A stretch of DNA of 63,035 nucleotides. Origin: Nitriliruptoraceae bacterium (GTDB taxonomy: Bacteria; Actinomycetota; Nitriliruptoria; Nitriliruptorales; Nitriliruptoraceae). Position 1 is the stretch's first letter; each line of letters starts with the position of its first letter. The translations under genes and the position numbers were made by a program. The stretch covers positions 1 through 63,035 of the forward strand of contig SKSM01000026.1 of assembly GCA_007122985.1 (NCBI GenBank), given 5' to 3'. Below the pieces are notes generated by a model. The model had not been told where the DNA came from. It searched no databases and saw only the letters and a program-made list of their open reading frames with translations. This document shows positions 18,861 to 26,917 of this stretch, piece by piece.

Positions 18861-20006
18861 TCAGCCACAGACCTGACGAAGCGTCGGATACGGGTTGATG
18901 GCGGAGCCGCCACCGGGATGGAGTTCGAAGTGGACGTGTTCGGCACCGGCGACGGCGTTACCGGTGGAACCGTTGGTGCCGACCTGGTCGCCGGCGGACA
19001 CACGCGCACCGTTGGAGACGGTGTGGCTGTCGAGGTGGAGGTACCAGTAGTGGTTGCCGTCGCTGCCGCGGAGGATCGCCCACAGCCCCGCGTTCGGTCC
19101 GGGCGACTGGATGTCCCAGACCCCGTCGACGATCGCCCGCACGGGCGTGCCGAGCGGCCCCATGAGGTCCGTGCCACGGTGGGCGCGGCCCCCGGAGCGC
19201 GGAGCCCCCCACGAGTCCACGAAGTGGCGGGGCTGATCCAGCGGGCAGGCCATGCCCCCGGAGGTAGCCGCCGTCGATCCGCTGTCCGCCCCACCACCGG
19301 CCTGCTCGGCCTCCGCGGCCTCCTCGGCCTGCTGCTGGGCGGCTTCGCGACGCTCGCGCTCACGGCGCTCCTCCTCGATGCGCGCACGCTCGGCTCGTGC
19401 CTCGTCGGAGAGCTCCTCCTTCAGGGTCTCGAGTTCCTCCTGGTCTGCCCGTAGCTCGTCGGCCAGCTCACGCTGGCGCTCCCGGGCATCTGCGAGCTGC
19501 TGCAAGCGGTCGTCGAGCTCGTCCTCGAGCGCCGCGACGCGCTGCTGTGCAGCCACCAACTCCTCGGACCGCACCTGATCGCCGGTGATCACGTGCTCGA
19601 TGATCTCCACCCGGTTGAGGGCCGCGGTCGGGTCCTCGCTGCCGAGGAACACCGCGATGGGATCAAGCGTGGGCCCGTGCTTGAACGCCTCGCGGACACG
19701 GAACTCCGCCTGCTCCTCGGTCTCCTCGAGCTCGTGGCGCAGCGTCTCCAGCGCCCGCTCGAGCTCGTCGGCCTGCGTGTCGAGCTCCGCCGTGCGTGCG
19801 CGCAGCTGCTCCTGCTCCTCGCCGGCACGCTCCAGGCGCTGTCGGACCTCCGACTGCGCCTGCTCGACCTGTTCGATCTCGGCCTCGATGCGGTCGAGCT
19901 CGGCCTCGTCGGCGACCACCTCGACCGGCGGCAGCAGGAGCACGATGACCGCGAGCACCGACACGGTGACGGTCGCGACCACGGGCGCGGAGCGGGACAA
20001 GCGCAC
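18861..20006 (-). CDS. secreted coiled-coil M23 (LytM) peptidase, EnvC-like
   Basis: The 381-residue protein has a short basic N-terminus and a hydrophobic signal or anchor (about 8-30) ending near VVA-DE. A long Glu/Arg/Leu coiled coil follows (about 35-240), interrupted by a FKHGPTLDPIAVFLGSEDP segment. A LytM domain (about 260-380) closes it. The zinc ligands look complete: His276 and Asp280 in AHRGTD, and His357 and His359 in EHVHFELHP. Such proteins cut or help cut peptidoglycan cross-links during division; the coiled-coil layout is that of EnvC/RipC-type proteins. The GTG at 20006 has GAGGT five bases upstream and starts right before the signal. No ftsEX is in view. Confidence 0.9.
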   Translation of the reverse strand: MRLSRSAPVVATVTVSVLAVIVLLLPPVEVVADEAELDRIEAEIEQVEQAQSEVRQRLERAGEEQEQLRARTAELDTQADELERALETLRHELEETEEQAEFRVREAFKHGPTLDPIAVFLGSEDPTAALNRVEIIEHVITGDQVRSEELVAAQQRVAALEDELDDRLQQLADARERQRELADELRADQEELETLKEELSDEARAERARIEEERRERERREAAQQQAEEAAEAEQAGGGADSGSTAATSGGMACPLDQPRHFVDSWGAPRSGGRAHRGTDLMGPLGTPVRAIVDGVWDIQSPGPNAGLWAILRGSDGNHYWYLHLDSHTVSNGARVSAGDQVGTNGSTGNAVAGAEHVHFELHPGGGSAINPYPTLRQVCG

Positions 20007-20245
20007 GGATACCTCAGGGACACGGCGTGGACGACCGAACGACAGGGCGGAGGCTACCGACCGTGTCGAATCCGTCAGCACCGGCCGGCGCGCCCGGAGT
20101 GTCACCCCATCAGGCGACGATCAGGTGACGATCAACCCTGTCCATGGCCACCATCGAACGGCCATTCCCCGACCGTTGCTCAGCGGCGTATGGTCACCGC
20201 GTCCGAGGTCCGACGACGACGATGCGCCGAGAGGAGGCACGGACG

Positions 20246-20329
20246 ATGTTCACGCTCACCCTCCCGCCGTCCGTCGCCGTCATCGGCGACGGCACCGTCG
20301 CCGGTCACCGGGCCTGCTGGACGCACTGA
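20246..20329 (+). CDS. 27-residue small ORF with strong ribosome site, possible leader peptide
   Basis: The ATG at 20246 is preceded by GAGGAGG with eight bases spacing, one of the best ribosome sites in the window. The peptide starts MFTLTLPPSVAVIGDG and ends HRACWTH. Its stop is 15 bp before a perfect 15-bp hairpin. This is the geometry of a leader peptide with an attenuator, or of a small secreted or regulatory peptide with its own terminator. I recognise no family. The region 20007-20245 ahead of it should contain its promoter and that of the divergent M23 gene, but I cannot place either. Confidence 0.5.
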   Translation: MFTLTLPPSVAVIGDGTVAGHRACWTH

Positions 20330-20344
20330 CGTCCACCTCTCCCC

Positions 20345-20380
20345 GACTCGGAGCCGGCGGTTTCACGCCGGCTCCGAGTC
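20345..20380 (+). terminator. perfect 15-bp stem, terminator or attenuator
   Basis: GACTCGGAGCCGGCG at 20345-20359 pairs with its exact complement at 20366-20380 around the loop GTTTCA. It is the strongest hairpin in the window. GTGTGTCT follows rather than a T run. CGCCGG inside the preceding small ORF could pair with the first arm and act as an antiterminator. Confidence 0.65.
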
Positions 20381-20452
20381 GTGTGTCTGGACCGCCGCTC
20401 CGTGACCGCAGCTGACGCCCTGCCGCGTCCATCCGCAACCATCGGAGCCGCC

Positions 20453-20653
20453 ATGATGCCCTATCACCCTGATGCCCATGTCCTGCTCGCGAGCCAGCGC
20501 CTGGCCGAGGACCACGCTGCCGTGCAGCGACGCCGGCTCGCCCGCCGTCCGCGGCCTCCCGGGCCACTGCGCCAGTGGCTCGCAGCGCGCCTCACCAGCG
20601 CGGCGGAGCGGCTGCTCGACGGGCCACCGACCACCTATCCCCGCCGTGCGTGA
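20453..20653 (+). CDS. 66-residue basic hypothetical protein
   Basis: The protein starts MMPYHPDAHVLLASQRLAED and has an Arg-rich middle (VQRRRLARRPRPPGP), then LRQWLAARLTSAAERLL and a proline-rich end. It has no membrane segment. The high positive charge could favour nucleic acid binding, but no motif is recognised. GGAG lies five bases before the first of two tandem ATGs (20453 and 20456). It follows the 15-bp hairpin, so its expression may depend on read-through of that structure. It ends just before a bidirectional terminator shared with gltB. Confidence 0.55.
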   Translation: MMPYHPDAHVLLASQRLAEDHAAVQRRRLARRPRPPGPLRQWLAARLTSAAERLLDGPPTTYPRRA

Positions 20654-20677
20654 GCGTGTCGTCCGTCCGGCGGGACG

Positions 20678-20706
20678 GCGGCCCGCCCAACACCGGGGCG
20701 GGCCGC
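20678..20706. terminator. bidirectional terminator hairpin ahead of gltB end
   Basis: GCGGCCCGCCC and GGGCGGGCCGC form a perfect 11-bp stem around a seven-base loop between the 66-residue gene and the convergent gltB. Confidence 0.65.
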
Positions 20707-20721
20707 GGTCGTGGTTCGTGC

Positions 20722-25392
<4,671 letters not shown>

Positions 25393-25708
25393 GACGTGAC
25401 CTCCGGTCGGTGCGCGAACGCGGTCGACGCGCCGGGCGTGGCAGTACAGCGACCCACAGTCACTGGGCCCACAGGCACCGGTGGACACGACGAACGGCGC
25501 CCACGAGCCCTGGGGATCGGGAACGCGAGCGCCGTTGCTCGGCCCGCACGGTAGCGCGCGCGACCGAACTCGTGCATCACGTGCGCAGGGGCCACGCGAT
25601 CGCGACGACCCGCGACCACGCGACCGGTCCGCAGGACCCGGGCCACTACCGCCAGCAGCTAGCGTCACGGGGTGACCGCAGCGACCCGACGATCGACGGT
25701 GATACCGG
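25393..25708. promoter_or_regulatory. 316-bp divergent region between gltB and RimK-like gene
   Basis: No ORF in this stretch looks real. It must contain the promoters of both genes, but the uniformly high G+C shows no clear -10/-35 pair. I saw no fold like a glutamine riboswitch and no tRNA. Confidence 0.4.
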
Positions 25709-26917
25709 ATGAAGCTCGCCATCCTCTCGCGTGCTCCCGAGAGCTACAGCACGCGGCGCCTCCGCGCCGCTGCCCACGAGCGCGACCACACGGTCAAGGT
25801 GCTCAACACCCTGCGGTTCGCGATCGACCTGGCCAGCGACGAACCCGATCTGCAGTACCGGGGCAAGGCACTGTCCGACTACGACGCGATCCTGCCCCGG
25901 ATCGGTGCCTCGATCACGTTCTTCGGGCTCGCGGTCGTTCGGCAGTTCGAGCAGATGGACGTCTACACGGCGAATACTGCGGCAGGCATCGCCAACTCGC
26001 GGGACAAGCTGCGGGCCATGCAGATCCTCTCGCGACACGACGTGCAGATGCCTGCGACCACCTTCGTCCGAGACCGCGCCGACGTCCTTCCGGCGATCGA
26101 GCGGGTCGGAGGGGCGCCGGTCGTGATCAAGCTGCTCGAGGGCACCCAGGGCATCGGCGTGATCCTGGCACCCAACCGCAAGGTCGCCGAGGCCGTCATC
26201 GAGACCCTGCAGTCGACGCGTCAGAACGTGCTGGTCCAGGAGTTCATCGCGGAGAGCAAGGGCAGCGACGTTCGCGCCTTCGTGATCGGTGACCGGGTCG
26301 TCGCTGCGATGCGTCGCAGTGCCGAGGGCGACGAGTTCAGGTCCAACGTCCACCGGGGCGGACGCACCGAGGTGGTGGAGCTCGACGACGAGGCCGAGCG
26401 TGTCGCGGTCCAGGCCGCGCAGATCATGGGGCTGAAGGTCGCGGGCGTCGACATGCTCGAGAGCGAACGGGGGCCGCTGGTGATGGAGGTCAACTCCTCG
26501 CCGGGCCTCGAAGGGATCGAGACCGCGACCGATCTGGACATCGCCGGCGCGGTGATCGACTTCATCGCCAACCAGGTCGCCTTCCCGGAGCTCGATGTCC
26601 GCCAGCGCCTGACGGTGAGCGCCAGCTACGGCGTGGCGGAGCTCGAGATCGGGGAGGGCTCCTCGATGGTCGGGCGCACCCTTGCGACCTCGGGGCTGCG
26701 TGAGCGTGACATCACCGTGCTGACCCTGACGCGCGGAACCAAGGTGGTCCCCAACCCGAAGGGCACACGCGAGCTCGAGGCGCACGACCGGCTGCTGTGC
26801 TTCGGCCGCTACGAGGAGATGCGCGACCTGGTGCCCGCGCGCCGCCGCCGCCGTGCCCACCCCAAGCTGGCACCGCTGCCCGACGACGCGGAGGAGCTGT
26901 CTGCGCCGGAGGGCTGA
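25709..26917 (+). CDS. RimK-like ATP-grasp ligase with C-terminal RCK_C/TrkA-C-like domain
   Basis: Residues 1-290 are a RimK-type ligase: MKLAILSRAPESYSTRRL, the pre-ATP segment YTANTAAGIANSRDKLRAMQIL, VVIKLLEGTQGIGVILA, the nucleotide hinge VLVQEFIAESKGSDVRAFVIG and metal ligands in LVMEVNSSPGLEGIE. RimK adds glutamates to ribosomal protein S6; relatives add amino acids to F420 or other acids. Residues about 300-385 (VAELEIGEGSSMVGRTLA, LREREDITVL-like, GTRELEAHDRLLCFG) match the RCK_C ligand-binding fold seen in TrkA. The end is Lys/Arg-rich, then acidic. The ATG at 25709 has only a weak ribosome site. Confidence 0.88.
   Translation: MKLAILSRAPESYSTRRLRAAAHERDHTVKVLNTLRFAIDLASDEPDLQYRGKALSDYDAILPRIGASITFFGLAVVRQFEQMDVYTANTAAGIANSRDKLRAMQILSRHDVQMPATTFVRDRADVLPAIERVGGAPVVIKLLEGTQGIGVILAPNRKVAEAVIETLQSTRQNVLVQEFIAESKGSDVRAFVIGDRVVAAMRRSAEGDEFRSNVHRGGRTEVVELDDEAERVAVQAAQIMGLKVAGVDMLESERGPLVMEVNSSPGLEGIETATDLDIAGAVIDFIANQVAFPELDVRQRLTVSASYGVAELEIGEGSSMVGRTLATSGLRERDITVLTLTRGTKVVPNPKGTRELEAHDRLLCFGRYEEMRDLVPARRRRRAHPKLAPLPDDAEELSAPEG

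Follow-up and report, generated by a model that had tools for sequence, protein, structure and literature searches.

The analyzed stretch of DNA, hereafter the window, comprises 63,035 nt with a GC content of 71.6%. Two minus-strand genes, encoding an M23-type peptidase (18861–20105) and GltB (gltB, 20722–25722), flank an intergenic stretch at 20106–20721; both gene names were read from the translations and do not stem from family matches. A promoter-like site, a 27-codon leader ORF (ORF1), the window's best hairpin, and the gene for a 66-residue arginine-rich protein (ORF2) follow one another on the plus strand of this stretch, and together they form one unit, which is real and conserved. The promoter-like site (20165–20194), which scored best among those upstream of ORF1, is composed of a −35 element, TTCCCC (20165–20170), and a −10 element, TATGGT (20189–20194), with a spacing of 18, and an equally high score was reached in 1.5% of control windows. 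ORF1 (20246–20329) starts with the ATG at 20246, ends with a TGA stop codon, and encodes MFTLTLPPSVAVIGDGTVAGHRACWTH, a peptide of 27 amino acid residues. Its Shine-Dalgarno sequence, GAGGAGG (20231–20237), is located 8 nt ahead of the ATG. An earlier note on this DNA had called this ribosome site excellent, and the description is apt, with GGAGG or AGGAG found 5–17 nt upstream of only 7 of the 458 ATGs in the window. The same note had placed the end of ORF1 15 bp before the strongest hairpin; the two are indeed close, but the actual distance is 14 nt. The hairpin (20344–20381; about −37 to −38 kcal/mol) is terminator-like, a perfect stem of 16 bp closing a loop of 6 nt, and is the longest perfect hairpin in the 63 kb, the next best having 11 bp. 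Also as described earlier, the protein encoded by ORF2 (20453–20653) is basic, containing 12 Arg, no Lys, and 5 Asp and Glu residues, and a second hairpin of 11 bp is present at 20678–20706. The second hairpin, to which no strand was assigned, is situated where ORF2 and gltB converge, between their stops at 20653 and 20722, respectively; it has equivalents in the corresponding position in L004, L006, L008, and L010 and is probably a terminator shared by the two genes.

ORF2 homologues were present in a search of 61 genomes, consisting of the window's own genome and its relatives. Of 66 genomes of the class, 12 gave strong matches (E < 1e-9) to a profile made from 12 ORF2 sequences; these 12 belong without exception to the window's family (f1), and one of them carries two copies. 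A diverged thirteenth genome, G004, was recognized by reading the gltB flank of other family members. The leader–ORF2 unit occurs in 13 of the 35 genomes of the family, mostly between the M23 peptidase gene and gltB. The unit lies between homologues of the window's flanking genes in G014, G025, G029, G009, and G026 and elsewhere in G005, G017, and G033; only one flank is visible in G006 and G002, where the contig ends. Beyond this family, ORF2 homologues are more sparsely distributed across the phylum. The dN/dS values of ORF2 were 0.27–0.73 for six pairs within one genus, which indicates moderate purifying selection; as judged from these sequence comparisons, ORF2 is conserved as a protein. 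Searches with ORF2 yielded no match above the cut-off in Pfam and NCBIfam, none in PHROGs, and no useful match in a PDB profile search. The DUF1127 model (PF06568) exceeded its cut-off in none of six genomes and at none of the ORF2 loci. The AlphaFold model of ORF2 contains two helices (residues 6–30 and 38–55), with a pLDDT of 73.9 and a pTM of 0.31, and is too weak for a fold search. The window's genome contains another, diverged ORF2-like gene (G000:C105:151–297; L126), and no leader ORF was found upstream of it.

The upstream regions of 12 ORF2-homologue loci were read. Eleven of them contained a short ORF of 24–37 codons with a Shine-Dalgarno sequence, 117–231 nt upstream of the ORF2 match; the remaining locus was cut by a contig end, and the later-found G004 brought the number of readable leaders to 12. 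This count excludes L014, whose contig starts inside the leader, and L048, a second copy in G017 with no leader seen. All 12 leaders have a short ORF of 24–37 amino acid residues at the ORF1 position, preceded by a Shine-Dalgarno-like sequence, and thus appear to possess the translatable short leader ORF that a ribosome-mediated attenuator generally requires. The peptides themselves share no common C-terminus, and the C-terminal codons of ORF1 had dN/dS values of 0.73–2.08 (three pairs, one genus), showing no purifying selection. The leader ORF is conserved as a short translated-looking frame and not as a peptide sequence. A lack of conservation of either ORF, which the earlier note had named as evidence against its reading, was not what we observed: the protein is kept in the case of ORF2, and the frame in the case of ORF1.

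Because the leader peptide is unconserved, the proposed stalling at a terminal Cys-Trp-Thr-His is unlikely, and this part of the earlier note was abandoned. More broadly, it is extremely unlikely that the locus is a peptide-specific attenuator, with a metabolite or charged tRNA as the signal and ribosome stalling brought about by this nascent sequence or by a single Cys. Cys, a scarce residue, does occur exactly once in 9 of the 12 leaders, as such a mechanism might lead one to expect, but its position varies, it is absent from the other three leaders, no run of scarce codons was found in the 12 peptides, no C-terminus is common to them, and ORF2 is not biosynthetic. The only run of at least three identical residues among the leader peptides is Ala-Ala-Ala in L005. 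Neither the leaders nor ORF2 display the combination of a regulatory codon run and a biosynthetic target that trp-type attenuation requires. As to composition, Glu, Gln, and Asn are nearly absent from the 12 pooled leader peptides, each accounting for one to two of 339 residues.

The terminator-like hairpin is found at the same place in all 12 leaders, 14–32 nt after the ORF1 stop. Nine leaders have variants of (GA)GCCGGCGG as the stem; the stem is ACGCGGTGGCC in L012 and L019, which belong to one genus, and GAGACGGCGG in G004; the position is the same and the sequences are unrelated. A TTCGTCG-like tail follows the hairpin in most relatives, and the tail of the window hairpin is T-poor. Covariance models of known Rfam leader families gave no match at the gathering score in the window and 18 related loci. 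Promoter-like sites precede the leader ORF in 10 of 12 leaders, and none was found in the ORF1–ORF2 spacer at any of the 12 loci. This distribution bears on an alternative in which ORF1 and ORF2 are independent genes, the former encoding a small protein and ending at a terminator of its own. The strong ribosome site of ORF1, a hairpin that could merely terminate ORF1, and the existence of ORF2-family copies without a leader in front (L048, L035, and L054) would fit two separate genes; the lack of promoter-like sites in all 12 spacers and the unconserved ORF1 peptide (dN/dS of about 0.7–2) speak against them, and the pairing described below would be left unexplained. We therefore regard such an arrangement as unlikely. 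The sequence comparison points instead to one promoter before ORF1 and none before ORF2, and to a hairpin 5′ arm shared by a terminator (3:4) and an antiterminator (2:3).

Before the 3′ arm of the terminator is made, most of the 12 leaders are predicted to fold into one long hairpin, in which the 3′ portion of ORF1 is base-paired to the 5′ arm of the terminator and the tip is a small hairpin carrying the ORF1 stop codon. According to the fold of the window, the 5′ strand of this proposed antiterminator (segment 2) lies within ORF1 at 20294–20312, with support at the family level and none above chance in the window alone. The 3′ strand (segment 3, 20341–20361) overlaps the terminator 5′ arm (20344–20359), and the tip is the stop-codon hairpin (20318–20335), which has a 6-bp stem and a loop, CACTGA, containing the ORF1 stop. 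Pairing between the 3′ part of ORF1 and the terminator 5′ arm exceeded that of shuffled sequences (Fisher, 1.6e-4) and of control windows taken from these loci (4.7e-4). The pairing ended 14–22 nt before the end of the ORF in 8 of 12 leaders, compared with 1.5 expected (P = 1.7e-5 for a range picked post hoc). The folding energy of the antiterminator state gave a mean z of −1.9 (Fisher, 1.7e-7), the window having a z of −0.06. The stop-codon hairpin was significant in 11 leaders (Fisher, 5.4e-6; window, p = 0.042) but not in G004, which was identified later (p = 0.35), or in G045, a member of a different family of the class (p = 0.24). Since the leaders are related, these Fisher values are too optimistic; swap tests are less affected. 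When the 5′ and 3′ halves of the antiterminator were swapped between species, a leader's own halves fitted better (p = 2e-5 for 12 leaders, which is the floor of 50,000 permutations). The corresponding values were 0.011 without the stop-hairpin zone, 0.033 for swaps between groups with differing terminators, and 1e-5 for the stop-codon hairpin.

Early tests of pairing within the ORF were negative (swap p = 0.38 in the window's family); they had used loosely bounded hairpins and leaders with near-alike terminator arms. The tests became positive when redone with exact hairpin cores, and the choice of boundaries therefore matters. No convincing alternative partner was found for the arms of the stop-codon hairpin besides the opposite arm. 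Low p values were also obtained for the 5′-UTR with ORF1 (0.008) and for the terminator 3′ arm with the spacer (0.004), among about 20 tests in which the L019 rows were wrong. The pairing, folding-energy, and swap tests suggest that the terminator and antiterminator are mutually exclusive at the level of the family, the window alone not exceeding chance.

The window's own copy was considered separately. The earlier note had proposed that CGCCGG within ORF1 pairs with the first hairpin arm; this motif (20299–20304) does so in the fold, and family-level support was obtained, but in the window alone the pairing of ORF1 with the arm was no stronger than in shuffled sequence (p = 0.43 and 0.70). 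The terminator was more stable than the antiterminator by 2–23 kcal/mol in 12 of 12 leaders, and the competition between the two must therefore be kinetic. The window has the largest gap (23 kcal/mol) and one of the weakest antiterminators of the 12, and for this reason its copy, a weak example, may be degenerate or mostly to tightly OFF.

A second actinobacterial family, f15, has an ORF2 homologue in 24 of 39 genomes. Among the 30 f15 loci read, many consist of a leader ORF (core sequence, for example, GGEVRPEV), a hairpin, and ORF2, in this order, and others carry a different ORF2 paralogue without a leader. Eighteen f15 leaders fold into the same architecture (Fisher, 2.7e-8), as do 11 less redundant ones (1.8e-6), which were picked by eye against near-duplicates. 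The f15 set omits L077, which is identical to L076 over the compared stretch; L083, L089, L090, and L073, whose starts were not set automatically, were outside the 18-leader tests, and the first three were included in the 14-row alignment (A8). In the swap test, the 11 leaders gave p = 2e-5, and 0.82 without the stop-hairpin zone; the hairpin with the stop in its loop was not significant by itself in f15. Column covariation in the 14 aligned leaders did not differ from that in shuffles, with 90.4% paired and 0 of 23 pairs double-changed. Of the alignment signals that the earlier note had asked for, compensating changes appeared in the swap tests between species but not in column-by-column counts, and a conserved peptide end was not seen. 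When 296 genomes were searched with an RNA model built from the 14 leaders, 10 genomes, exclusively of f15, had a single match, and a comparison of positions placed all 10 matches shortly upstream of an ORF2 homologue. Among the loci scanned, the model also recovered leaders outside its training set (L069, L070, L074, and L075; E of 0.012 or better). The model gave no match to leaders of the window's family, and the two families therefore share an architecture and not a demonstrable RNA family.

On the basis of these results, the locus is likely to be a translation-coupled transcription attenuator controlling the arginine-rich ORF2. The relatives support the leader ORF with an attenuator and the alternative pairing of the earlier note, and likewise its view that control is exerted on the basic protein. 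As to direction and signal, we infer that ORF2 would be OFF when the leader ORF is efficiently translated and ON otherwise. A ribosome reaching the ORF1 stop would melt the antiterminator tip and clear segment 2; the terminator (3:4) could then form, RNA polymerase would stop, and ORF2 would be OFF. When ribosomes are scarce, or stalled early in ORF1, the antiterminator (2:3) would form ahead of the synthesis of the 3′ arm, and transcription would continue into ORF2. The sensed quantity would be ribosome passage, for which the peptide sequence is not needed.

In trpL, the stop codon sits in the 1:2 pause hairpin. whiB7 is an antibiotic-responsive uORF attenuator, and Escherichia coli topAI is reportedly another. 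The present locus resembles the latter two in that translation of a leader ORF would set the expression of the downstream gene; it differs in that ORF2 is unrelated to their downstream proteins, and the antibiotic link belongs to whiB7 and topAI. Classical attenuators of amino-acid operons have been proposed for actinobacteria (PMC1262725, excerpt). As far as that excerpt goes, they share with this locus a short ORF and competing antiterminator and terminator hairpins (PMC1262725), whereas here there is no regulatory codon run and no biosynthetic gene. A further difference from the classical type is the stop codon located at the tip of the antiterminator hairpin.

The closest functional analogue appears to be duf1127_1 of Sinorhizobium meliloti, in which, according to the excerpted report, a 29-aa uORF in a leader of about 280 nt precedes a small arginine-rich protein whose function is unclear (PMC12218461). 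Its expression is described there as reciprocal to uORF translation and induced by tetracycline and chloramphenicol, with a sensing element at the uORF start; in the same excerpt, no intrinsic terminator was found and Rho was suspected (PMC12218461). Both systems thus have a short uORF or leader ORF ahead of a small arginine-rich protein; unlike duf1127_1 as excerpted, the present locus has a terminator/antiterminator pair for which the end of the ORF serves as the basis (PMC12218461), and ORF2 is unmatched by the DUF1127 Pfam model. The analogy raises Rho-dependent attenuation, in which translation of ORF1 would hide or expose a Rho site and the hairpin would be minor. We consider this very unlikely, given that all 12 leaders have a stable hairpin in this position and most relatives a TTCGTCG-like tail after it, in spite of the T-poor tail in the window and the Rho link that the authors of the excerpted report suggested for the analogue (PMC12218461).

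Returning to the translation-coupled attenuator, we tentatively propose, with slightly less than even confidence, that it may represent an Actinomycetota class sensing ribosome traffic, in which the leader ORF is free in sequence and the antiterminator is capped by its stop codon, finished translation turns expression off, and the controlled gene encodes an arginine-rich protein, as a possibly convergent counterpart of the proteobacterial DUF1127 system. A search of full-text literature, judged by title and start of abstract, found no description of the leader-ORF/ORF2 element. If the proposal is correct, two distantly related high-GC actinobacterial families use translation efficiency to control one arginine-rich protein family, in parallel with the experimentally studied Sinorhizobium case. 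It would give a first handle on the role of ORF2, which would lie in responding to translation stress or to a shortage of ribosomes. The leader ORF would be kept for being translated and not for its peptide, and homology searches with leader peptides would miss such ORFs.

Several further observations were made in f15. Segment 2 had been assigned to the PVFGGE codons or to CCTGATGTCC with the loop, and both assignments were superseded by the later fold. The leader ORF of L089 (1170–1280) contains an internal duplication of the GGAGAGGTGCGTCCC block and preceding sequence, with the frame kept. In L074, L075, and L076, whose start codons are uncertain, the RNA block GTGCG(C/T)CC(T/C)GATGTCC may be read in another frame; if so, this would point to a constraint at the level of RNA rather than of the peptide. 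L078, L080, L085, L094, L097, and L098 are leaderless ORF2 paralogues. As seen by eye, several of them have a short motif in common upstream, GACCTGTTT or GACCTCTTT-like, and adjoin an apparent DNA-binding regulator gene.
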